DNA of 64,000 nucleotides from Clostridia bacterium (GTDB lineage Bacteria > Bacillota > Clostridia > TANB77 > UBA1234). The DNA lies in contig JAFUGE010000014.1 in assembly GCA_017469545.1 (NCBI GenBank), forward strand, positions 1-64,000, read 5' to 3'. The position numbers and the translations under genes were made by a program. The notes beneath the pieces are model-generated. The model worked only from the letters and a program-made list of their open reading frames with translations. It was not told the DNA's origin and made no database searches. Positions 3,136-61,753 of this stretch are shown here, in pieces; positions within the stretch are counted from its first letter, which is position 1, and every line of letters starts with the position of its first letter.

Positions 3136-6100
3136 ATGAGAAAAAAATTAATGTTGATTGGTACGTTGATATTTGTTGTAACGCTTACAATTATATCAGC
3201 TATTGTTTTTGCGGCAGACCAAACAACCATTAGTTTAGAAATTGAAGAGGAAAAGACAACTTTTGAAGTTGGCGATACAGTTACTGTTGATGTAATTCTA
3301 GAAACACCGGATAGTAATTTAGGGGTTGTCTATGGGGCTATGACGTTTGACGAAGAAAAACTAGAATTAACGGATTGCGGTGGACTTGAGGTTTTTAAGG
3401 ACGGCCGAAAATCAGTTACACCAAAGGTATTTGACCAGAGTGCTACATACTCGAATCAAATTTCGTTTTGGCTTGAATACAGTGATAAGCCTTTGCAAGC
3501 GGGGATAATTGGCTACGTTGAATTTAAAGTGAAAGATGGTGCAACCGGGACAGCTGATTTTGGATTTGTTGGTGTTACAGCGACAAGTTATGATACTACA
3601 ACAAATGTATATACAGCAAATTTGAATACTGCATCAATAACAATCGGACATACACATACATTGGTAAAGACAGACGAAGTTGCAGCAACGTGTACAGAAG
3701 ATGGCACGAAAGCATATTGGACATGCTCTGTATGCCAGAAGATGTTTAGTGACGAAAATGGCACAAATGAAATTACAGAAGTAGAGGTAATTACAAAACT
3801 AGGCCATACGCTAGTAAAAACAGACGAGATTGCAGCAACATGCACAGAAGATGGCACAAAGGCTTACTGGACATGCTCAGTATGCCAGAAGATGTTTAGT
3901 GACGAGAATGGCACAAACGAAATTACTGAACCAGAAACAATTGCAAAACTAGGCCATACATTAGTAAAGACAGACGAAGTTGCAGCAACGTGCACAGAAG
4001 ATGGCACGAAAGCTTACTGGACCTGCTCAGTATGCCAGAAGATGTTTAGTGACGAGGATGGCACAAACGAAATTACTGAAGTAGAAACAATTAACAAGTT
4101 AGGTCATACATTAGTGAAGACAGACGAGATTGCAGCAACATGTACAGAGGATGGCACAAAGGCCAACTGGACATGCTCTGTATGTCAGAAGATGTTTAGT
4201 GACGAAGCAGGAGAAAACGAAATAACAGAGCCTGAGACAATTACGAAACTAGGACATACATTAGTAAAAACAGACGAAGTTGCGGCAACGTGTACGGAAG
4301 ATGGTGCGAAAGCATATTGGACATGCTCTGTATGCCAGAAGAAGTTTAGCGACGAAGCTGGAGCAAACGAGATTACAGAAGTAGAAGTGATTACAAAACT
4401 AGGCCATACGCTAGTAAAGACAGGCGAAGTTGCAGCAACATGTACCGAGGATGGCACGAAAGCATATTGGACATGTAGCACTTGCGGAAAGAAATTTAGT
4501 GACGAAGCTGGAGAAAACGAAATTACTGAAGTAGAGACAATTACAAAACTAGGTCATACATTAGTCAAGACTGAAGAAGTCGCAGCAACATGCACCGAAG
4601 ATGGCACGAAAGCATATTGGACATGTTCTGTATGCCAGAAGATGTTTAGTGACGAAAATGGCACAAACGAAATAACCGAGCCTGAAACAATTACAAAACT
4701 AGGACATGCACTAGTGAAGACAGACGAAGTTGCGGCAACATGTACTGAGGATGGCACAAAAGCATATTGGACATGTTCCGTATGCCAGAAGAAGTTTAGT
4801 GACGAAAATGGCACAAACGAAATTACTGAACCAGAAACAATTGCAAAACTAGGACACACATTAGTGAAGACAGACGAGATTGCAGCAACGTGTACAGAAG
4901 ATGGCACAAAAGCTTACTGGACATGCAGCACTTGCGGAAAGAAATTTAGTGACGAAGCAGGAGAAAACGAAATAACAGAGCCTGAGACAATTGCAAAACT
5001 AGGCCATACATTAGTAAAGACAGACGAAGTTGCAGCAACGTGTACCGAAGATGGCACAAAGGCTTACTGGACATGTAGCACATGTGGAAAGAAATTTAGT
5101 GACGAGAATGGCACTACTGAAATTGCAGAAGTAGAAGTAATTACAAAGTTAGGCCATACATTAGTAAAGACAGACGAAGTTGCAGCAACGTGTACCGAGG
5201 ATGGCACAAAGGCCTACTGGACATGCTCTGTATGTCAGAAGATGTTTAGTGACGAGAATGGCACAAACGAAATAACCGAGCCTGAGACAATTACAAAGTT
5301 AGGCCATACACTAGTAAAGACAGACGAAGTCGCAGCAACGTGCACAGAAGATGGCACGAAAGCTTATTGGACATGTTCCGTATGCCAGAAGATGTTTAGT
5401 GACGAAGCAGGAACAAACGAAATTACAGAAGTAGAAGTAATTGCAAAACTAGGACACACATTAGTAAAGACTGAGGAAGTTGCAGCAACATGTACCGAGG
5501 ATGGAACAAAGGCTTATTGGACATGTAGCACTTGTGGTAAGAACTTTAGTGACGAAAATGGCACAAACGAAATTACTGAAGTAGAAGTAATTACAAAATT
5601 AGGACACACATTAGTAAAAACAGACGAAGTGCCAGCGACTACGACATCAGAAGGAACCAAAGCTTATTGGACATGTTCTGTATGTAATAAGATGTTTAGC
5701 GATAAGGCTGGTAAAAATGAAATAACTGAACCTATTAAAATCCCTAAGAAAACTATTTTAGCAGGTGGCGGAGGAGGTAGCTCTACTGTATCGTACAAGA
5801 TAACAACGAAGGCAGGCGAAGGCGGAACAATTACTCCAAGCAACCCAAGTGTAGACAAAAATGATAGCCAGAAATTTACGATTAAAGTAAATGAGGGATA
5901 TGAAATCGAAGACGTCCTTGTGGATGGCGAATCGGTTGGTAAAGTGAAAACCTATACACTAGAAAAAGTAACTGAAAAACATACTATTGAAGTGAAATTT
6001 GCTAAGAAGGCGGAGGATACTGTGCCTAGCGAAAGCGGAAAGCCAGCAGATAAGTTTATTGATGTCAATGAGAATAATTGGTTTTATGATAATGTAAATT

Positions 6101-33397: not shown

Positions 33398-34000
33398 CTG
33401 TAGAGGTCGCATACCATGCGACCCACAAGAAAAAACAAAGAACTTAAATGAAAATAGGAGGAACCCCTCCTCAAGTAGCTCTGGTTGCCACTTGGGGAGG
33501 GGTTCGTTTGTGACTGGCAGTGTTCTGACAAAAAGTCCGTCTGCGGGAATGACCAAAATATACAGCTGAGGGCTAAAAATTTTCAGACTGGTTAAGATGG
33601 ATGATCGCCAAAGGGATGGTTTTTGTTCGCATACTAGCAATGTTGGTTCTGCGTACTCGGTGCCTTCCATGTCAATGATGCGCACTAAGTTTTCTTGAAT
33701 CAAAGATGTGGTTTTGTTACAAGAATAGTCATACCAAATGTCATTTCCATTTGGCTTGAATGACATTCCTACGTACTTGTCAACTGCGACAGGAGTGAGC
33801 GAGTGTTTTTCCACAATTTCCACGTCGGAAAGGCCCAAATTCCAGGGAAATGCCAGCGGTAGGGAAGAAACAGTACAAACGAGCGCAACGACAAAAATAC
33901 TACCAGCAATTGTTTTGGCTAATTGTTTCGTGATGGCGCCATAAACTATGGCAATGGCGGCACAGATAACAGACACTACCATTAGGATGTCAAAAAACAT
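33176..34000 (-). CDS. Two-TM membrane protein with read-through tail
   Basis: The product (274 residues from ATG 34000, with AAGGAGG upstream) has two membrane helices (about 3-50), then an extracytoplasmic domain with IWYDYSCNKTTSLIQENLV. It is a paralogue of the gene at 34158-34634, which is only 158 residues. Alignment places the ancestral end near FVRTLP. Beyond that point the ORF runs through its own terminator-like hairpin and two REP repeats and overlaps the convergent ATP-grasp gene by 222 bp, so the last roughly 115 residues are probably not native. GC is higher than in the flanks. Function unknown. Confidence 0.55.
   Translation of the reverse strand: MFFDILMVVSVICAAIAIVYGAITKQLAKTIAGSIFVVALVCTVSSLPLAFPWNLGLSDVEIVEKHSLTPVAVDKYVGMSFKPNGNDIWYDYSCNKTTSLIQENLVRIIDMEGTEYAEPTLLVCEQKPSLWRSSILTSLKIFSPQLYILVIPADGLFVRTLPVTNEPLPKWQPELLEEGFLLFSFKFFVFSCGSHGMRPLQLYSSFFLAGSVIRCPYRFCVHSCFKFWKHANRILVHFFCHLINVVPRIMISFHKRWAIDCHCHIPSHISHIRT
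33350..33376 (+). repeat. GTAG-headed REP-like palindrome inside the ATP-grasp ORF
   Basis: Canonical copy read in frame as VGAAYHAAR at the C-terminus of the ATP-grasp protein. Confidence 0.9.
33400..33426 (+). repeat. Family-1 REP-like repeat, variant arms
   Basis: GTAGAGGTCGCAT pairs with ATGCGACC: the arms differ from the consensus in a compensatory way. Confidence 0.8.
33458..33506 (-). terminator. Terminator-like hairpin within the 3' read-through tail
   Basis: Long GC-rich stem (GAACCCCTCC / GGAGGGGTTC plus AAGT/ACTT). It corresponds to the terminator of the paralogue at 34110-34155 but here lies inside the ORF; only a weak T-rich stretch follows. Confidence 0.5.
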
Positions 34001-34073
34001 TGACAAATCCTCCTTACAAATTATTTTGCCTTAATATTATATGACGGCTTTTAGGTGATGTCAATTGTGATTT

Positions 34074-34100
34074 GTAGGGGCAGCGTACCACGCTGCCCGT
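34074..34100 (+). repeat. GTAG-headed REP-like palindrome (family 1)
   Basis: Canonical copy between the two paralogous minus-strand membrane genes. Confidence 0.9.
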
Positions 34101-34109
34101 AAAAATAAA

Positions 34110-34155
34110 ATTGGCAAAAAATTCCCCGGGCGGCTATTAAGCCACTCGGGGGTTG
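34110..34155 (-). terminator. Terminator of the second membrane-protein gene
   Basis: On the minus strand, CCCCCGAGTGGC pairs with GCCGCCCGGGG and is followed by AATTTTTT, just after the stop at 34158. Confidence 0.8.
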
Positions 34156-34157
34156 GT

Positions 34158-34634
34158 TTACCAGGTCAGTTTGACCACGCTGTCCTGAGGCAAAATCAGG
34201 ACGAACGTGCACTTCTTCCAAAGACTTAGAAGGAGCTGAGAACGCAGAAGCGTTGCTGGCGTGCAACACTTGAGCAGTGCCGGCGCCTTGTAAGGCGTCG
34301 CTTCCATGCTCAGTAGTCTCACATCCCGCGATGCTCTTACCAGGGAATCGGCATCGTCGAAACTCAGCCGATACCAGACATCACCCTCGGGCCACACGTT
34401 TACTTCCGCATAGCTTCCGGGGTTGAGTTCCTCCAGGTAGGACACCTTGCTAGGGTGTACTAACAGTTCTTCTGTCCGAGGAACAGAGTTGTACACAACT
34501 ACAAAACTCCCCAGAAGAGTCAACAGCATAAGAGCAGCTATGACTTTCAGCGAGCCTTTCTTGGAATGCTTCCCTCTGAACAGGCAAAGTAAAAAGAGTA
34601 CAAACAGGGCAACAATAGCAGCGTCAAACAACAT
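34158..34634 (-). CDS. Small two-TM membrane protein, paralogue of the neighbour
   Basis: The 158-residue product has two membrane helices (about 3-20 and 30-50), then a domain with SYAEVNVWPEGDVWYRLSFD and LRSQLLLSLWKKCTFVLILP that aligns with the gene at 33176-34000. AGGAGGT precedes the ATG at 34634. The coding sequence is clearly GC-richer than its AT-rich surroundings and uses different codons, suggesting recent acquisition. I do not recognise the family. Confidence 0.65.
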   Translation of the reverse strand: MLFDAAIVALFVLFLLCLFRGKHSKKGSLKVIAALMLLTLLGSFVVVYNSVPRTEELLVHPSKVSYLEELNPGSYAEVNVWPEGDVWYRLSFDDADSLVRASRDVRLLSMEATPYKAPALLKCCTPATLLRSQLLLSLWKKCTFVLILPQDSVVKLTW

Positions 34635-34728
34635 GGGGAATACCTCCTACAAAATTAATTTACATAATTATTATACAGCACATTTCAAATTATGTCAATT
34701 ACAATCCGCAAAATTTACCATTTAGGTG

Positions 34729-34756
34729 TTGATTTTTTCCCGAAATGGTATATAAT
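34729..34756 (+). promoter_or_regulatory. Promoter of ppdK
   Basis: TTGATT and TATAAT with a 16-bp spacer, about 60 bp before the ATG. Confidence 0.6.
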
Positions 34757-34815
34757 AACAATGTTATGGACATAAAAAATATGACAACAAAAAAAGAAAT
34801 TAAGGAGGAAACAAA

Positions 34816-37443
34816 ATGAGCAAAAAGTATGTTTATCTTTTTAGCGAAGGAAACGCTAACATGAGAGAACTTCTTGGTGGTAAAGGTGCTAACCTTGCAG
34901 AAATGACAAATATTGGATTGCCAGTTCCACAAGGATTCACAATCACTACAGAGGCTTGTACTCAATACTATGAAGATGGTAGAGAAATCAATGACGATAT
35001 CAAAGCCGAGGTAACAGAGTACATCGCAAAATTGGAAGAAATTACTGGTAAGAAATTCGGTGATAAGGAGAATCCACTTCTAGTTTCTGTACGTTCAGGT
35101 GCTAGAGCTTCAATGCCTGGTATGATGGACACAATTTTGAACTTAGGATTAAACGAAGATGTTGTTGATACTTTAGCAACGAAGTCAGGTAACCCAAGAT
35201 GGGCTTGGGACTGCTACAGAAGATTCATTCAAATGTATTCTGATGTAGTTATGGAAGTTGGCAAAAAGTATTTTGAACAATTGATTGATAAAATGAAAGA
35301 GGAAAAAGGCGTTACGCAAGACGTTGAGCTAACGGCCGAAGATTTAAAAGAACTTGCTAGTCAGTTTAAAGCTGAGTACAAGGAAAAGATTGGACAAGAT
35401 TTCCCATCTGACCCAATCGAGCAATTATGGGGCGCTATCAAAGCGGTATTCAGAAGCTGGGATAACCCAAGAGCTAATGTATACAGAAGAGATAATGATA
35501 TCCCATATTCTTGGGGTACTGCTGTAAACGTTCAATCAATGGCATTTGGTAACATGGGCGACGACTGTGGTACTGGTGTTGCTTTCACAAGAGACCCAGC
35601 TACTGGCGCTAAAGGATTATTTGGTGAATTCTTAACAAATGCACAAGGTGAAGACGTTGTTGCTGGTGTTCGTACACCAATGCACATCACAGAGATGGAG
35701 CAAAAATTCCCAGAAGCTTTCGCACAATTCAAACAAGTTTGCGAAACTCTTGAAAAACACTATAGAGATATGCAAGATATGGAATTTACTGTTGAACACG
35801 GTAAATTGTATATGCTTCAAACAAGAAATGGTAAGAGAACAGCACAAGCTTCTATCAAGATTGCTTGCGACTTAGTTGACGAAGGAATGAGAACGGAAAA
35901 AGAGGCAGTTGCTATGATTGATCCTCGTAACTTAGATACATTACTTCACCCAACATTTGATCCAAAAGCTTTGAAAGAAGCTACTCCAATTGGTAAAGCA
36001 TTAGGTGCTTCTCCAGGAGCTGCTTGTGGTAAAGTCGTATTCACAGCTGAAGATGCTGAAGAATGGGCTGCTAGAAAAGAGAAAGTTGTTCTTGTTAGAC
36101 TTGAAACTTCTCCAGAAGATATCGTTGGTATGAAAGCATCTCAAGGTATCTTAACAGTTCGTGGTGGTAGAACATCTCACGCTGCCGTTGTTGCTCGTGG
36201 TATGGGTAAATGCTGCGTATCTGGATGCACAGAGATTAATATGGACGAAGAGAACAAGAAATTCACACTTGGCGGAAAAGAATTCCACGAGGGCGATGTA
36301 ATTTCTATTGACGGTACAACAGGTAACATCTATGAGGGCGCTATTCCAACAGTTGAAGCTACTGTTTCTGGCGATTTCGGCAGAATTATGGCTTGGGCTG
36401 ACAAATATAGAAGATTAAAGGTTAGAACAAACGCTGATACGCCTACAGATGCAGCTAAAGCAAAAGAGCTTGGCGCTGAAGGTATTGGCCTATGCCGTAC
36501 AGAGCATATGTTCTTTGAGCCAGACAGAATTGCTGCTATCAGAGAAATGATTTGTTCTGATACAGTAGAAGAAAGAGAAGCTGCACTTGCTAAATTAGAG
36601 CCAATGCAACAAGGCGACTTCGAGAAATTATATGAAGCTATGGATGGCTATGGCGTAACAATTCGTTACCTAGACCCACCTCTTCACGAGTTCGTTCCTA
36701 CAGAGGAAAAGGACATCGAGGAATTAGCCAGAACACAAGGTAAGACAGTTGAGCAAATCAAAGCAATTATCGCTTCTCTACACGAGTTCAACCCAATGAT
36801 GGGTCACAGAGGATGCAGACTTGCTGTTACTTACCCAGAAATCGCTAAGATGCAAACAAGAGCCGTTATCAAAGCTGCTATTGCTGTATCTAAGAGAACA
36901 GGACACGCAATTGAGCCAGAGATAATGATTCCATTGGTTGGCGAAGTAAAAGAGTTAAAATATGTAAAAGACGTAGTTTGCGAGACAGCTGACGAAGTAA
37001 TTAAGGAAGCTGGCGTAGAAATGAAGTACCACGTTGGTACAATGATCGAAATTCCAAGAGCTGCCTTAACAGCTGACGAAATCGCTAAAGAAGCTGAATT
37101 CTTCTCATTTGGTACAAACGACTTAACACAAATGACATTCGGATTCTCTAGAGACGACGCTGGTAAGTTCTTAGGCGCTTACTACGACAAGAAGATATAT
37201 GAAAACGATCCATTCCAAAAACTAGACCAAGTTGGTGTTGGTAAATTAGTAAAGATGGCAGTAGAGCTTGGAAAACAAACTCGTCCTGACATCCACTTAG
37301 GAATCTGTGGAGAGCACGGTGGAGATCCTTCTACAATCGAGTTCTGCCATAAAGTAGGATTAACATATGTATCTTGCTCACCATACAGAGTTCCAGTAGC
37401 TAGACTTGCTGCTGCACAGGCCGCAATCGCAGACGAGAAATAA
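34816..37443 (+). CDS. ppdK: Pyruvate, phosphate dikinase
   Basis: PPDK interconverts pyruvate + ATP + Pi and phosphoenolpyruvate + AMP + PPi, and serves PPi-linked glycolysis in many anaerobes. The 875-residue product has an N-terminal ATP-grasp domain (LLGGKGANLAEMTNIGLPVP, SVRSGARASMPGMMDT), the swivelling domain with phospho-His in GGRTSHAAVVARGMGK, and the C-terminal TIM barrel (CRTEHMFFE, EIMIPLVGE, GTNDLTQMTFGFSRDDAG, CGEHGG). Codon choice is markedly optimised (for example GGT, GCT, AAC), consistent with high expression. AAGGAGG precedes the ATG and a terminator follows. Confidence 0.98.
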   Translation: MSKKYVYLFSEGNANMRELLGGKGANLAEMTNIGLPVPQGFTITTEACTQYYEDGREINDDIKAEVTEYIAKLEEITGKKFGDKENPLLVSVRSGARASMPGMMDTILNLGLNEDVVDTLATKSGNPRWAWDCYRRFIQMYSDVVMEVGKKYFEQLIDKMKEEKGVTQDVELTAEDLKELASQFKAEYKEKIGQDFPSDPIEQLWGAIKAVFRSWDNPRANVYRRDNDIPYSWGTAVNVQSMAFGNMGDDCGTGVAFTRDPATGAKGLFGEFLTNAQGEDVVAGVRTPMHITEMEQKFPEAFAQFKQVCETLEKHYRDMQDMEFTVEHGKLYMLQTRNGKRTAQASIKIACDLVDEGMRTEKEAVAMIDPRNLDTLLHPTFDPKALKEATPIGKALGASPGAACGKVVFTAEDAEEWAARKEKVVLVRLETSPEDIVGMKASQGILTVRGGRTSHAAVVARGMGKCCVSGCTEINMDEENKKFTLGGKEFHEGDVISIDGTTGNIYEGAIPTVEATVSGDFGRIMAWADKYRRLKVRTNADTPTDAAKAKELGAEGIGLCRTEHMFFEPDRIAAIREMICSDTVEEREAALAKLEPMQQGDFEKLYEAMDGYGVTIRYLDPPLHEFVPTEEKDIEELARTQGKTVEQIKAIIASLHEFNPMMGHRGCRLAVTYPEIAKMQTRAVIKAAIAVSKRTGHAIEPEIMIPLVGEVKELKYVKDVVCETADEVIKEAGVEMKYHVGTMIEIPRAALTADEIAKEAEFFSFGTNDLTQMTFGFSRDDAGKFLGAYYDKKIYENDPFQKLDQVGVGKLVKMAVELGKQTRPDIHLGICGEHGGDPSTIEFCHKVGLTYVSCSPYRVPVARLAAAQAAIADEK

Positions 37444-37444
37444 T

Positions 37445-37476
37445 TGAAACATTCAGGGACATCCCTTCTTGTTTCA
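37445..37476 (+). repeat. RAYT-linked palindrome (family 2, type A)
   Basis: TGAAACATTCAGGGACA to TGTTTCA, one of eight copies around the transposase. Confidence 0.85.
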
Positions 37477-37498
37477 ATATGGTGACATAAATTAAATA

Positions 37499-37543
37499 GG
37501 GGGCAAAATTATTCTGAAATAAGGGTAATTTTGCCCTCTTTTT
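37499..37543 (+). terminator. Terminator of ppdK
   Basis: Stem GGGCAAAATTA / TAATTTTGCCC followed by TCTTTTT. Confidence 0.85.
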
Positions 37544-37549
37544 GCGTTT

Positions 37550-37581
37550 TGAAACATTCAGGGACACCCTTTCGTGTTTCA
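37550..37581 (+). repeat. RAYT-linked palindrome (family 2, type A)
   Basis: Type A copy followed by the tail CCAAGATAACATAA, shared with the copies at 37600 and 39234. Confidence 0.85.
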
Positions 37582-37599
37582 CCAAGATAACATAAAACT

Positions 37600-37686
37600 T
37601 GAAACATTCAGGGACAACCCTTCGTGTTTCACCAAGATAACATAAAATTGAAAATGAAACATTTAAGGATGTCCCTAAATGTTTCA
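37600..37686 (+). repeat. 87-bp composite family-2 element, left copy
   Basis: Type A palindrome (37600-37631), tail CCAAGATAACATAA and type B palindrome (37655-37686). It differs from 39234-39320 at only 4 of 87 positions, and the two bracket the transposase and phosphoesterase genes. Confidence 0.9.
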
Positions 37687-37700
37687 AGAAAGGATGGAAT

Positions 37701-38438
37701 ATGAGAAAACCACGCTTTTATTATGAATCTAATTTTTATCACATTATGGTTCAAGGCGACGAAAAGAAGTATATTTTTAATGAGTATAAGCATAAGAAAA
37801 AATATTTATACTTAATGAGGAGAAATGCATTTAAAAATGATATTGAAATAATATCGTATTGTATCATGGATAATCATGTACATATTTTAGTTTTTTGCCC
37901 AATATTAGAGAGATTATCAAAATTCATGCTAGAGATAAATACAGCATATGCACTTTACTTCAATAAGAAGAGAGAGAAGGTTGGGCACGTTTTTAGAGAA
38001 AGGTATCGCTCAGAAAGCATATATACCAAGGACCACTTGATAAATTGTATTAAGTATATCCATTATAATCCTGTGAAAGCAAAAATATGTGCAAAATGCA
38101 GTCAATATATCTTCTCTAGTTATAATGAATTTCAAAAAGATAGCTATAAAATGAAAGATATTTGTGGTATTTCAGAAGTAGATGTTAAAAATATTTTAAA
38201 CGAAACATGTACAAACACGAATTTTATTGAAGACGAATACTCCAAAGAAGATGTGAAAGACGCATTAAATGAGATTATCAAGGAAACACCGGCGATAAAA
38301 GGCGATACTCATATGATAGGATTAATATATCTACAATTACATAAAAGATGTAAAACGAATGATATAGAAATAGCGGATGCCCTTGGTATTAGCAGAACAA
38401 GCTTATATAGAGCACTCAAAAAGGAGAAAATTAAGTAA
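37701..38438 (+). CDS. REP-associated tyrosine transposase (RAYT, Y1/IS200-like)
   Basis: Single-strand-acting HUH transposase. The 245-residue product has the RAYT start (RKPRFYYESNFYHIMVQGDE), the HUH pair His59/His61 in MDNHVHILV, FRERYRSE, and the Y1 region YIHYNPVKA, whose Tyr is the likely nucleophile. The C-terminal about 60 residues (IEIADALGISRTSLYRAL) form a helix-turn-helix, as in one RAYT group. It is flanked by eight TGAAAC...GTTTCA palindromes, the likely substrates. It appears intact. Such enzymes are usually single-copy and have domesticated behaviour rather than full IS mobility. Confidence 0.9.
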   Translation: MRKPRFYYESNFYHIMVQGDEKKYIFNEYKHKKKYLYLMRRNAFKNDIEIISYCIMDNHVHILVFCPILERLSKFMLEINTAYALYFNKKREKVGHVFRERYRSESIYTKDHLINCIKYIHYNPVKAKICAKCSQYIFSSYNEFQKDSYKMKDICGISEVDVKNILNETCTNTNFIEDEYSKEDVKDALNEIIKETPAIKGDTHMIGLIYLQLHKRCKTNDIEIADALGISRTSLYRALKKEKIK

Positions 38439-38454
38439 ACTAGCTGCAACAAAA

Positions 38455-38476
38455 AAGGATGTCCCTGAATGTTTCA
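38455..38476 (+). repeat. Half copy of the family-2 palindrome
   Basis: Right half of type B (AAGGATGTCCCTGAAT then GTTTCA), 16 bp after the transposase stop. Confidence 0.7.
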
Positions 38477-38531
38477 TTAATGTGCAAAGTATGGTATACT
38501 AAATTTGTTTCAAAGAGAAAGGAGCAAATAA

Positions 38532-39236
38532 ATGAAAGATAAAATAGCGATTGTTGCGGATATACATGCCAATATACATGCATTAAACACATTTTTAGAA
38601 TACATTAAGGAAAATAATATTAATAAAGTTTTAAATTTAGGAGATTTTGTGCAAATTGGTCCAAATCCCAAAGAAGTTACGGAAATTATATTAGGGGATA
38701 GCCGTTTTATTAATATTTTAGGGAATAATGAAATATCATTATTTGATATCGACGAAAACGATACAAGCTCTGAAATTGCTCATAGAGTTTGGACCAAAAA
38801 ACAAATTAACGAATATATGGATGATATAAAAAAGCTTCCAGAAACGAATATTGTTGAAATGAATGGATTAAAACTTTTAATGATTCATTCTAGGAAAGGT
38901 AATGCGAGTGGAAAGCCATTAATATACAAAGAAAGTATGCAAAGTTTTGAAGAGGATTATCAAGAATTTGAAACAAATTTTATCTTATTTGGACATACCC
39001 ATGAGAAAATGTTAATAGAACATCACAATAAAATATATATTAATCCTGGAAGTTTAGGATGTTCTTATAATAAAAATGCAGATTTTGTAATTTTAGAATT
39101 ACAAGATGGACAAATTGAAAAATGTACTTTTGAATCTTTAAAATACGACAAGAATTTGGTTATAAAAGATTATTTAAAAAATGAAGTGCCTGATAGAGAA
39201 TTTATTTTAAAGAATTTTTATGGTTATTCCATTTGA
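38532..39236 (+). CDS. Calcineurin-like metallophosphoesterase (YfcE/MJ0936-like)
   Basis: The 234-residue product has the metal motifs IVADIHANIHAL (D-x-H), NLGDFVQIGPNP (G-D), LGNNE (G-N-N/H-E), LMIHSRKG and FGHTHEKM (G-H-T-H). It hydrolyses phosphoesters; the substrate is unknown. It belongs to the two-gene cassette bracketed by 87-bp repeats. Its TGA stop (39234-39236) is formed by the first three bases of the right repeat, so the native C-terminus may have been altered. Confidence 0.88.
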   Translation: MKDKIAIVADIHANIHALNTFLEYIKENNINKVLNLGDFVQIGPNPKEVTEIILGDSRFINILGNNEISLFDIDENDTSSEIAHRVWTKKQINEYMDDIKKLPETNIVEMNGLKLLMIHSRKGNASGKPLIYKESMQSFEEDYQEFETNFILFGHTHEKMLIEHHNKIYINPGSLGCSYNKNADFVILELQDGQIEKCTFESLKYDKNLVIKDYLKNEVPDREFILKNFYGYSI

Positions 39237-39320
39237 AACATTCAGGGACATCCCTTCGTGTTTCACCAAGATAACATAAGATTGAAACTGAAACATTTAA
39301 GGACGTCCCTAAATGTTTCA
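39234..39320 (+). repeat. 87-bp composite family-2 element, right copy
   Basis: Type A palindrome 39234-39265, tail, and type B palindrome 39289-39320. Its first TGA is the stop of the phosphoesterase, and its last TCA is the stop (TGA on the minus strand) of the convergent acetyltransferase. Confidence 0.92.
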
Positions 39321-39758
39321 TAAAATAAATTCATACGTTTCGTCGTCTATTTTTACAAAGCCAATTGCCTCAAATGTTTTAATGCTTTGCGTGTTAAAAG
39401 GATAGATTTCTGCAAATACTTTTTCAAGACCTTTTTCCTTGGCGATTTCAATCATTTTTACAATACATTTTCTACCGATGTGTCTGTTTTGGTACTCCTT
39501 GCATATCACAATGCAAATTTCACCGTTATCTTTTAGTGTAATATCTCCAACGAGTACACCTTGATATTCTATATAATAAAGTTCGCCGTGTGTATTAAGA
39601 TAGTGATACATTTTGTTTAATTTCTCTATGGAATATGGGTAATCTACATTGTCGACTTGCTTACAAACATCTAAGTCTTGGTACCATTCCAAAGTAATTT
39701 TCTCATTTGGATAGTATGGTATTAATTTTATTTCATTATCTACGATTATCTCTTTCAT
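39318..39758 (-). CDS. GNAT family N-acetyltransferase
   Basis: The 146-residue product has the GNAT fold: YYIEYQGVLVGDITLKD (beta2-beta4), ICIVICKEYQNRHIGRKCI (acetyl-CoA pyrophosphate loop, a Q/R-x-x-G-x-G/R variant) and PFNTQSIKTFEAIGFVKID. It resembles RimJ/RimL-like enzymes that acetylate proteins or small amines; substrate unknown. AGAGGTG precedes the ATG on the minus strand. Its stop codon comes from the family-2 repeat. Confidence 0.85.
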   Translation of the reverse strand: MKEIIVDNEIKLIPYYPNEKITLEWYQDLDVCKQVDNVDYPYSIEKLNKMYHYLNTHGELYYIEYQGVLVGDITLKDNGEICIVICKEYQNRHIGRKCIVKMIEIAKEKGLEKVFAEIYPFNTQSIKTFEAIGFVKIDDETYEFIL

Positions 39759-39866
39759 AATTTCACCTCTTATTTTGATATTATACCACTCAAAAACGCA
39801 AATGCAATATTGCTACATACATAATACTTGTGTTATGATTAATTTAGCGGGAGGATATACTAAATT

Positions 39867-39898
39867 TGAAACATTTAAGGGTGTCCCTGAATGTTTCA
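39867..39898 (+). repeat. RAYT-linked palindrome (family 2, type B)
   Basis: TGAAACATTTAAGGG to TGTTTCA, directly before the RBS of the YARHG gene. Confidence 0.85.
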
Positions 39899-39911
39899 GG
39901 GGGAGGATGGT

Positions 39912-41537
39912 ATGAAAAAGGTTGCAATTTTTTTGATTTGTTTTGCTGTGGTGGCGCTGGCTGCGACAATAGGGCTGGCAAAGTATCAAAGGCAGACAGT
40001 AGAAAATGGAGGACAAGGCCTCACTGATAATGGGAAAGAAAATACTGATAATGTGCAAGTTAATCCATTTGCAGTAAGGCATTTAGGGAATGAGACATAT
40101 TATTTGAATAATCTTGAAATCGAACCAGTTAATTTCCACGAAGGTGATCAAAAAAGTAGCTTAGGCGGCTGGGACGACGACGGAAATGCGTTTTATAATT
40201 ACTATTATCCATATAGATGTGAGTATTTTAAAATAAAAGGGTTAAAGGATAAAGAACTCGAAAATGCCATCAATGATAAAATTGAAAAATATGTATTTGA
40301 TGCCTATGATAAATCAAAAGCAGAAAGAGTGGACGGAGCATATGTAGAAGCTAGGCTAGCGGCCAATTTTTCAAACGTGTTATCCATTTGTATAGGAGAG
40401 AATACCTATTATGATCCGGATTATATTATTAATATCGATCTTACCACGGGGAAAGAAATAGAGCTAAAAGATTATTTTACAGATAATGCGCCAATCAAAA
40501 ATATTTTGGCAAGTCAAATGTACCAGTTGGTTCAGAGCGACCATACGACAGTCGTTTTTGAAGAATCTACTTTTAATGACGAAAGTCGTAAGAATTTTGA
40601 GGAGTTCACGTTTCAGTTTATTAATGAAATTATTAAAGGAAGATACAGATTTTACTTTTCGGAAACAGGGATATATATACTATTTCATAATGATTTTGCC
40701 CAGGGAGTTTATGCAACATATATGTGGGACAACAGCGAGAGATTATATATCAATATCAATGATACCTATCAATATGTGGCAATCTTTAAGCGTTTTGCTG
40801 CGCAGGATTCTATTTTCGAAAAAGAAAATACGGAGGATAATGTAAGGTATATTGGGTTTAATGGTGATAGCATAGTAAAGAAGTATTCTAACAAATACAT
40901 TACGATTGATTCGCCATATAATTATGGCCCAGAAGACTTAATTGAGCCAAGAAAGGATCTTACCCAAAAGTTTGAGTATCAAATGAATTACGATAGGAAA
41001 GTGTACCAAGACAAATCGGAAATTACGTATGTATCTTACGACCCATTAAATCACTGGTATGATTTATATTTAATCAGAATACCAGACCGTTTATTTACAA
41101 ATGATAATGTTGATAGAATTATGAATATTATTGCTAGCGCCGAGTTAACTTATGATATGATGGAGGGAATGACGGTTAGCATCAAAGACGAAGTACAAGC
41201 AATTTTCCCTAATGAAAGTGAGCTTGAAGTCTTTGTTAATAGTTCGCGTATGGCTTCGAGTGACGAAGAGGTAAAGAACAGCAGTAATCAGATTATTACG
41301 GAAAATGAGCAAGTGTGGTATAGAACATATGCGGATATGACGCAATTAAATCGAAACTATAATGAAATTTTTGCGCGTCACGGACACGACTTTGCTACCA
41401 AAGAATTAAGAGATTATTTTACTCCGTTTGTTTGGTACTTGCCAGAGTATGGAAAGAAAGTGTCTTTAGAGGAATTAAATGACATAGAAAGAGAAAACGT
41501 AAGAATATTAAAAGAAATCATAGACTCCAAAAAATAG
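39912..41537 (+). CDS. YARHG-domain membrane-anchored protein
   Basis: The 541-residue product has an N-terminal signal anchor (about 3-24), a long extracytoplasmic part with DUF-like beta-rich blocks (IGENTYYDPDYIINIDLTTG, a PrsW/DUF3298-like pattern, about 90-290), and a C-terminal YARHG domain (about 475-520, YNEIFARHGHDFATKELRDYF). YARHG domains occur in extracellular parts of Firmicutes surface proteins; the ligand is unknown. Start ATG 39912 follows GGGAGG; an upstream in-frame reading would pass through the family-2 repeat. Function unknown. Confidence 0.8.
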   Translation: MKKVAIFLICFAVVALAATIGLAKYQRQTVENGGQGLTDNGKENTDNVQVNPFAVRHLGNETYYLNNLEIEPVNFHEGDQKSSLGGWDDDGNAFYNYYYPYRCEYFKIKGLKDKELENAINDKIEKYVFDAYDKSKAERVDGAYVEARLAANFSNVLSICIGENTYYDPDYIINIDLTTGKEIELKDYFTDNAPIKNILASQMYQLVQSDHTTVVFEESTFNDESRKNFEEFTFQFINEIIKGRYRFYFSETGIYILFHNDFAQGVYATYMWDNSERLYININDTYQYVAIFKRFAAQDSIFEKENTEDNVRYIGFNGDSIVKKYSNKYITIDSPYNYGPEDLIEPRKDLTQKFEYQMNYDRKVYQDKSEITYVSYDPLNHWYDLYLIRIPDRLFTNDNVDRIMNIIASAELTYDMMEGMTVSIKDEVQAIFPNESELEVFVNSSRMASSDEEVKNSSNQIITENEQVWYRTYADMTQLNRNYNEIFARHGHDFATKELRDYFTPFVWYLPEYGKKVSLEELNDIERENVRILKEIIDSKK

Positions 41538-41576
41538 ACACTTGAAAGAATTAATGAATTATGGTAGTATGATTCC

Positions 41577-41603
41577 ATAGGGGCAGCGTACTACGCCGCC
41601 CGA
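41577..41603 (+). repeat. Family-1 REP-like repeat, variant head
   Basis: ATAG replaces GTAG and one arm has C-to-G change (ACGCCGCCC). Confidence 0.8.
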
Positions 41604-41622
41604 ATAATAAGGGGGAAAAATT

Positions 41623-42615
41623 ATGAAGAGATTTTTAGTAGCACTACTTGGCATGATTTTAATTGTTGGGGTTTGTTATGGTGTGTACACGTTTTTAACA
41701 AAAGATGCAGGAGAGACACCAACGCCAAATCCTAACATTAGTGAGCAAGAAAATAATAATCCAAATGGGAATGAGAATCAGGCGTTTGTCATTGGACAGG
41801 CCGAAGCAATATTTACAGAGGAGAATTATCCTAGAATTGATGGCTCTACGGCTACGATTCCGCTTTCAGAAGCGTTTAAGGCAGAGTTTTTGGGAAAAGG
41901 CCTAAATGATGTAAGCGTTGTTCATAACACGACGCATAATGCGTATGTAAATTTAGTGGATGGCAATGCGGATTTGATTTTGGTGACATATCCATCGGAA
42001 GAAGAATTACAATACGCGAAAGATCAAGGCGTTGATCTTGAAATTGTTCCTGTGGTAAACGAAGCATTTGTATTCTATACGAATGAGAAAAATCCTGTGA
42101 AAAGTTTAACTCTAGAACAAATTCAAAAGATTTATACAGGCGAAATCACAAACTGGAGCGAAGTTGGCGGAAATGACGTTGAGATTAAAGCTTATCAAAG
42201 AGAGCCAAATTCAGGAAGTCAGACGGGTATGCTAAAACTTGTTATGAATGGGCTAGAATTGATGGAGCCACCAAAGGAAGATATTATTGAGACGATGGCT
42301 GCGATTATTGGATTGGTTTCTGATTATGAAAATGGCGAGAATGCAATTGGTTATTCTTACTACTACTATGCTACGACAATGTATGATACTATCGACAAAG
42401 AAGTAGCAGATAGAATTCATTTGCTTGGCGTGAACGGAGTGGAGCCAAACAACACAACAATTAAGGACGGTAGCTATCCAATTAGAACGAATTACTATTT
42501 AGTATATAACAAGGCAGAAGCGGAAGACAGCCCTGTGAGAAAGCTTGCGGACGCAATGCTATCTGAAAATGGCCAGAAAGCTGCTGAAGCGGTAGGATAT
42601 GTAGGAGTAAAATAA
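41623..42615 (+). CDS. PstS-like phosphate/anion-binding protein
   Basis: The 330-residue product has an N-terminal membrane anchor (about 3-25), an Asn/Pro-rich linker and a periplasmic-binding-protein fold of the PstS type: RIDGSTATIPLSEAF (anion-binding loop), EIVPVVNEAFVFYTNEKNPV, IYTGEITNWSEVGG and REPNSGSQTGM. pstCAB genes are absent next to it, so it may serve a distant transporter or act in signalling. Family is clear; phosphate specificity is inferred. Confidence 0.85.
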   Translation: MKRFLVALLGMILIVGVCYGVYTFLTKDAGETPTPNPNISEQENNNPNGNENQAFVIGQAEAIFTEENYPRIDGSTATIPLSEAFKAEFLGKGLNDVSVVHNTTHNAYVNLVDGNADLILVTYPSEEELQYAKDQGVDLEIVPVVNEAFVFYTNEKNPVKSLTLEQIQKIYTGEITNWSEVGGNDVEIKAYQREPNSGSQTGMLKLVMNGLELMEPPKEDIIETMAAIIGLVSDYENGENAIGYSYYYYATTMYDTIDKEVADRIHLLGVNGVEPNNTTIKDGSYPIRTNYYLVYNKAEAEDSPVRKLADAMLSENGQKAAEAVGYVGVK

Positions 42616-61684: not shown

Positions 61685-61701
61685 TTTGGCAATTTAAAAT
61701 T

Positions 61702-61728
61702 GTAGGGGACGCGTAGTACGCGGCCCGC
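61702..61728 (+). repeat. Family-1 REP-like repeat, variant arms
   Basis: GTAGGGGACGCGT...ACGCGGCCC: changed arms that still pair. Confidence 0.75.
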
Positions 61729-61753
61729 GGGTTGCGTGATACGCAACCCCTAC
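61727..61753 (-). repeat. Family-1 REP-like repeat, variant arms
   Basis: Inverted copy with GGGTTGCGT / ACGCAACCC arms, sharing 2 bp with the copy at 61702. Confidence 0.8.

Follow-up and report, generated by a model that had tools for sequence, protein, structure and literature searches.

A TIRYT-like transposase of a Clostridia genome and its flanking palindromes: constant core and enzyme-dependent arms

This analysis concerns a RAYT-type transposase gene and the 32-nucleotide (nt) palindromes around it, at positions 37,445 to 39,898 of a 64,000-nt stretch of contig JAFUGE010000014.1 from a Clostridia bacterium (assembly GCA_017469545.1; the whole stretch is called the window below). Across relatives of this enzyme, the palindromes have a constant core, a fixed strand orientation and a fixed dyad geometry; their arms depend on the enzyme that they accompany, and REPIN-like inverted doublets of the element occur elsewhere in the genome. 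Judged from sequence comparison, the locus is probably a TIRtron-like unit, in which a single-strand transposase of the Y1 (HuH) type, ending in a C-terminal helix-turn-helix (HTH), is enclosed by its own recognition element in inverted copies. The HTH would read the bases of the arms, either as a hairpin stem or as two half-sites, so that every enzyme would have a target of its own; the HuH domain would work on the exposed strand, at its core or hairpin, and the doublets would be non-autonomous copies. An ACATAA/TTATGT box next to the element is a candidate tag.

Core, orientation and arms among relatives

Alignment of 15 copies from this genome gave the plan TGAAACA, variable, AGGGACA, variable, TGTTTCA, in which arms and core are near-invariant, with an ACATAA-like box about 8 nt beyond the element in most copies. 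The core reads AGGGACAY, AGGGACAA or AGGGACGT; compared with GGGGWSAS, the first G is replaced and the last S is met in some copies.

The relatives' loci comprised 155 unique proteins, and a class-wide search provided a second (validation) set of 107 loci with 103 new unique proteins, 95 of them full length. In the first set, 56 of 95 unique loci have a GGGAC core within exactly complementary arms of at least 6 base pairs; the same holds for 67 of 1900 shuffled sets of flanks and for 11 of 107 controls taken 2 kb away. In this set, 53 upstream elements carried the core on the plus strand and 39 downstream elements on the minus strand, against four and two in the opposite orientation (92 of 98 elements consistent). 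The second set, with 39 loci having clean arms, gave 49 and 38 against four and five (87 of 96 in the same orientation). Under a looser rule, an armed element was present at 125 of 148 loci, and on both sides of the gene at 86. The dyad centre fell exactly on the base after GGGAC at 54 of 79 and 35 of 39 loci, compared with 2 of 24 shuffled matches, and lies half a base leftward of that position in this genome; in relatives with clean arms, GGGAC is a given of the search itself, and many have GGGGAC. In addition, the GGGAC strand folded better in 91 of 113 decided elements (58/77 and 33/36), a weak hint from folding predictions that one strand may be chosen. Other core types were also seen, namely GGGGTCGG arrays and GGGGTCAGG repeats around the loci L139 (G048:C12), L072, L080 and L082, with no clear arm dyad.

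Among the 79 discovery loci with clean arms, arms were shared by all 14 protein pairs above 70% identity, 95% of the 22 pairs at 60-70%, 51% of the 45 pairs at 50-60% and 1-5% of the pairs under 40%. Paralogues within one genome differed in their arms in 19 of 20 scorable pairs and shared them in one. The junction behind ppdK (34816-37443), the upstream neighbour of the transposase gene, holds a RAYT in this genome (G000) as well as in G010 and G012. G012 and the query are 96% identical in ppdK and 56% in the RAYT, and at this junction TGAAACA is replaced by CGTCAAA-type arms while the core, the ACATAA box and a terminator-like hairpin are retained. The stretch read after ppdK in the congener G001 has neither a RAYT nor an armed element. 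The first round of arm calling produced noise, including artefacts at L016, L033, L118 and L161, and gave way to a cleaner calling.

The sequence comparisons suggest that arm identity tracks the HTH better than other protein regions, although weakly within the validation set alone. Over the 2926 pairs of the discovery set, the partial rank correlation with the arms was 0.194 for the HTH, 0.116 for the region preceding it (pre-HTH), 0.066 for the middle region and -0.010 for the catalytic domain. Where catalytic identity was below 45%, HTH identity was 0.295 in the 50 arm-sharing pairs and 0.207 in the 1462 others (0 of 2000 label permutations), and pre-HTH identity was 0.177 in both groups. 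The HTH correlation was 0.175 for validation-by-discovery pairs and 0.170 for all 6903 pairs (0 of 300 permutations in each case); in the latter, the other regions did not exceed 0.046. Since pairs are not independent, disjoint pairs were drawn from both sets together. In three identity ranges (n = 51, 52 and 43), the HTH gave 0.335, 0.380 and 0.409, with 9, 3 and 4 of 1000 permutations, respectively, scoring as high; for the other regions, 24-181 of 1000 did so. For the 51 disjoint pairs, the other regions gave 0.177 (catalytic), 0.252 (middle, 44/1000) and 0.163 (pre-HTH).

Groupings of helix and arm motifs were read by eye, with no fitted code. TGTCAA arms accompany RETVRK-like helices in Clostridia, in an Atribacteria metagenome-assembled genome (MAG) and at the new locus L212, and the catalytic domains of the Clostridia and the MAG are about 40% identical. 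TGCCA arms accompany an REx(L/I)R helix, and TGAGACA arms an SRATLYRK helix, which is close to the combination of TGAAACA and SRTSLYRA at the window locus.

Within this genome the arms are fixed except for one altered arm base in each of 2 of the 15 copies, and no compensatory (two-sided) change was found among the seven arm pairs of these copies. The stem of the GTAG repeats of the same genome does show compensatory change (10 cells, 0 of 500 shuffles); this favours the view that the bases of the arms are read.

Several points weigh against the overall account of locus, arms and HTH. Only 79 discovery loci and 39 of the 95 validation loci gave clean arms, the others being dropped from the association tests, and the arm rules (longest shared word of at least 6, then 5, and the cleaner arm calling) were tuned on the discovery set. 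A group of relatives with GGGGTCAGG repeats lacks a clear arm dyad, and L154, L157 and L136 have repeats without GGGAC. The gain in folding of the GGGAC strand is only about 0.3-0.4 kcal/mol, and the window element tried folded slightly better on the other strand. G001 is without the RAYT, yet offers no clean empty site. Within the validation set alone, the partial correlation was weak for the HTH (0.088; 18/300) and was 0.091 (22/300) for the middle region, and HTH identity in distant pairs was 0.265 with shared arms versus 0.272. The middle region also carries some arm signal in the independent pairs.

The locus and the copies of its element

The 245-amino-acid enzyme matches Pfam Y1_Tnp (2.9e-12) and, below the cut-off of 80, NF047646 (69.9 bits). 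It contains the class-2 Y-x3-NP motif (HVH 59-61, YIHYNP 119-124), and all of 31 aligned sequences share H59, H61, Y119, N123 and P124. An AlphaFold2 model from 31 sequences (pLDDT 88.2) has a HuH core and helices 203-217, 221-228 and 232-241; matches of the C-terminal region to Pfam HTH_8, HTH_7, HTH_23 and HTH_28 are weak and under their cut-offs. Among PDB folds, the best match is 4er8, TnpA_REP in complex with a repetitive extragenic palindrome (REP) hairpin, which was also top in the sequence search. No other Y1 gene was found in the genome (99.6% complete). An earlier note on this DNA had called the gene a RAYT transposase, and it is a RAYT-type Y1 HuH gene with palindromes of its own; however, it is not of the GTAG-REP type but TIRYT-like, with a C-terminal HTH and GGGAC-cored terminal inverted repeats (TIRs), an assignment made from protein and repeat features against published descriptions. 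The features of the locus are as follows.

37445-37476, plus strand: TIR element copy 1, starting 1 nt past the ppdK stop codon
37485-37490, plus strand: ACATAA box of copy 1, 8 nt past the hairpin; shared with the syntenic loci L018 and L114
37499-37543, plus strand: terminator-like hairpin between the first element and the RAYT, read from the sequence
37550-37581, plus strand: TIR element copy 2
37590-37595, plus strand: ACATAA box of copy 2
37600-37631, plus strand: TIR element copy 3, left half of an inverted doublet
37640-37645, plus strand: ACATAA box of copy 3
37655-37686, minus strand: TIR element copy 4 ("type B"), right half of the doublet with copy 3
37701-38438, plus strand: RAYT/TIRYT transposase, 245 amino acids, Y1 HuH domain (H59-V-H61; Y119-x3-N123-P124) and C-terminal HTH
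38307-38423, plus strand: C-terminal trihelical HTH (residues 203-241, recognition helix 232-241; AlphaFold2), putative arm reader
38445-38476, minus strand: TIR element copy 5, right terminal repeat directly after the RAYT stop; one arm degenerate (left arm TGCAACA)
39234-39265, plus strand: TIR element copy 6, left half of a second inverted doublet
39274-39279, plus strand: ACATAA box of copy 6
39289-39320, minus strand: TIR element copy 7 ("type B"), right half of the second doublet
39867-39898, minus strand: TIR element copy 8, solitary, without an ACATAA box

All eight palindromes counted previously in the window were recovered, and copies 1-3 on the plus strand and copy 5 on the minus strand bound the RAYT gene as TIRs. 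The pattern TGAAACA-N18-TGTTTCA with at most 2 mismatches has 8 matches in the window, a number reached by none of 100 dinucleotide shuffles (shuffle mean 0.70). The division of the copies into two types was largely given up: the reverse complement of type B is TGAAACATTTAGGGACATCCTTAAATGTTTCA, a type A element read from the opposite strand, and in the alignment of the 15 copies orientation explains most of the difference, so that two independent types were rejected. What remains is a longer perfect arm (11 nt) and the missing ACATAA box in type B. The proposed order of A, tail and B is present at 37600/37655 and 39234/39289, and is therefore an inverted doublet rather than an ordering of two types.

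The element had also been thought to occur only within 2.5 kb of the transposase. However, a 48-nt model built from the 15 copies finds 20 distinct copies in the 1,242,278 bases of the genome, 12 of which lie outside the window on seven contigs (two each on C5, C7, C24, C13 and C3, one each on C12 and C21). The exact pattern has matches on four other contigs in the whole genome, and a fifth, on C1, resembles a chance match. The distribution is neither random nor unconnected with the gene: 8 of the 20 copies lie at it, and 5 of the 7 other sites (C3, C5, C7, C13 and C24) are structured, REPIN-like inverted doublets, as are two at the RAYT locus. The linkers of the dispersed doublets carry two ACATAA-like boxes facing inward, and the C3 doublet folds as a single 108-nt hairpin (-47.9 kcal/mol, z -16.6); the C12 and C21 copies are single. 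The doublets are best read as non-autonomous derivatives. At L321 (G005:C60, about 735-1080), the RAYT start, last codons, leader and both TIRs are retained and the middle is missing, as in a miniature inverted-repeat transposable element; this internal deletion and the dispersed doublets look like mobile DNA. In viral contigs, the exact pattern had no matches, and in 17 relatives the 48-nt model gave two weak single matches only, in G009 (0.0037), where it reads as a TGAAAC-armed palindrome, and in G005 (0.006).

Some further observations concern single copies and their surroundings. The C21 copy (L193/L196, G000:C21:24234) lies mid-way inside another palindrome with TATCCA arms (GGGACGGAGG, GGGGGACGGAGG), possibly the remnant of another GGGAC family whose gene is missing. 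At L005 (G000:C12:37205-37252), the single TGAAAC element directly adjoins a GTAG repeat, between genes that we take to be pgk-like and tpiA-like. The first TGA of copy 6 (39234-39236) is the stop codon of the open reading frame (ORF) 38532-39236, the TGA of copy 7 (39318-39320) is that of a GNAT ORF (39318-39758, minus strand), and a third element-supplied stop was seen at L002:1501-1503 (ORF L002 1162-1503); these overlaps may reflect insertion at gene ends or stop-codon supply. Leader hairpins similar to that of the window were read in nine relatives. In L016-L019, L021, L024, L026, L114 and L116, such a terminator-like hairpin, followed by a run of T, separates the start of the RAYT from the upstream TIR; it resembles the leader terminator of IS200. 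The element as a promoter was considered by eye but found no support, as the GGGACA/CATAAT spacing suits G010 but not this genome. No Rfam families were found in 34000-42000. Elsewhere in the window, a long array of 150-nt repeats (3589-5838; 14 overlapping 300-nt copies) is probably coding.

Alternative explanations and the GTAG repeats

The arms might matter by pairing only. The enzyme would then see the GGGAC tip on any stem, the arms would drift compensatorily, and their link to the HTH would come from shared ancestry and a common clock. We consider this rather unlikely. It fits the way in which arms track overall protein identity and the weak HTH signal of the validation set alone, and the E. 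coli enzyme is described as tolerating swaps of the upper stem (PMC8266576). However, the 15 copies contain no compensatory arm change, whereas GTAG stems compensate; the middle and pre-HTH regions, which change equally fast, predict the arms worse in the discovery, cross and combined sets; and TGTCAA arms with a RETVRK-like helix recur across Clostridia and the Atribacteria MAG in spite of their distant catalytic domains. It is likewise unlikely, and slightly more so, that the dyads are operators through which the RAYT, by means of its HTH, represses itself and its neighbours, the repeats being regulatory rather than sites of transposition. An HTH with inverted half-sites is the usual plan of a repressor, the elements adjoin RAYT starts, and a terminator-like hairpin stands within 150 nt upstream of 45 of 228 RAYTs, but in 1 of 684 shuffled sequences and in 7 of 219 controls, some of these hits being TIR elements. 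Against this stand the retention of the HuH and Y motifs, invariant in the 31 aligned sequences, the fixed inverted orientation of elements on both sides of the gene, and the likeness to mobile DNA of the dispersed doublets and of L321, internally deleted with both TIRs.

A single system, in which the RAYT also mobilises the GTAG repeats, the sole other palindrome family in the window, is very improbable. The GTAG family has 204 + 161 strand matches at no more than 3 mismatches (about 365, a few near-palindromic sites maybe being counted twice), for example at 33399-33425, 61701-61727 and 61726-61752 of the window, and a single Y1 gene is available for them in this nearly complete genome. However, no GTAG element flanks the RAYT in the stretch read, the GTAG stem and tag are unlike the element, and G001 has GTAG repeats of another stem on both sides of the gene for a different Y1 protein, of 149 amino acids. 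The idea that one RAYT serves both families was dropped as unsupported. No constant GTAG tag was found beside the 15 aligned copies (3' side and element aligned; 5' side of the window copies read), and with 20 copies versus about 365 GTAG matches the element is not a high-copy dispersed family. The same GTAG stem was found in none of the 17 relatives, and the assembly has no cognate Y1 gene for the GTAG repeats, its sole Y1 gene being the TIRYT-like RAYT. From the Y1 gene of G001 and the GTAG counts here, the GTAG repeats therefore look like a canonical REP family without a transposase in this assembly. The earlier suggestion of two REP systems holds as far as two repeat systems are concerned, but the one with a C-terminal HTH and GGGAC-cored TIRs is not a second canonical REP system.

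Relation to known systems

The TIRtron-like reading has its closest parallel in the TIRYTs and TIRtrons of Di Nocera et al. (2013), described as RAYT-like tyrosine transposases with flanking TIRs, GGGGWSAS in many of them, some self-complementary repeats, and moderately abundant families with dimers (PMC3733652). Flanking TIRs, a RAYT-like transposase, doublets and self-complementary repeats are found here too. A term search of the text of that paper returned neither Firmicutes nor Clostridi-. New in comparison with TIRtrons are the GGGAC dyad geometry, the enzyme-private arms, the association of arms and HTH, the ACATAA box and the replacement of arms at the same locus. Quentin et al. (2018) tie TIRYTs to TnpA_REP subclass 2.1; their passages on this subclass report no REP-like sequences near the genes, and consider that the C-terminal domain may be uninvolved in target recognition or may have evolved a new target (PMC6006769). 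The present enzyme resembles subclass 2.1, especially 2.1.2, in its class 2 Y-x3-NP signature, long protein and C-terminal HTH, and the enzymes of that subclass are probably the TIRYTs; in contrast to the doubt about the C-terminal domain, our data favour a role in target recognition. Within the open-licence papers searched, "TIRYT" or "TIRtron" appeared only in PMC3733652 and PMC6006769, and the dyad geometry, private arms and arm-HTH link were not found.

The locus shares with canonical RAYT/REP systems and REPINs the short palindromes near the gene, the dispersed inverted doublets and a fold near 4er8 (PMC2817692, PMC3116915, PMC8266576). It differs in having no GTAG tag and a low copy number (20), and in that specificity appears to lie in the arms and not in tag and bulge. 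Members of IS200/IS605 have a Y1 HuH domain, with a leader hairpin before the gene in IS200, and both features recur here. Unlike in IS200/IS605, the hairpins form inverted repeats on either side of the gene and do not stand on one strand, an extra HTH is present, and there is one gene copy.

A broader proposition stands evenly balanced in our judgement. TIRYT-type RAYTs would join an exchangeable HTH targeting module to a HuH domain that works on a constant GGGAC core, set at a fixed distance from the dyad centre, arms and helix changing together, even in place. Each enzyme, with its REPIN-like copies, would thus form an orthogonal single-stranded DNA system, and there could be a readable, reprogrammable helix-to-arm code (RETVRK/TGTCAA, SRATLYRK/TGAGACA, SRTSLYRA/TGAAACA). 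The comparison yields a concrete, testable rule of specificity and ties REPIN-like repeats to TIRYT/subclass 2.1 enzymes. Such an arm rule could explain how several of these enzymes coexist in one genome without common targets.

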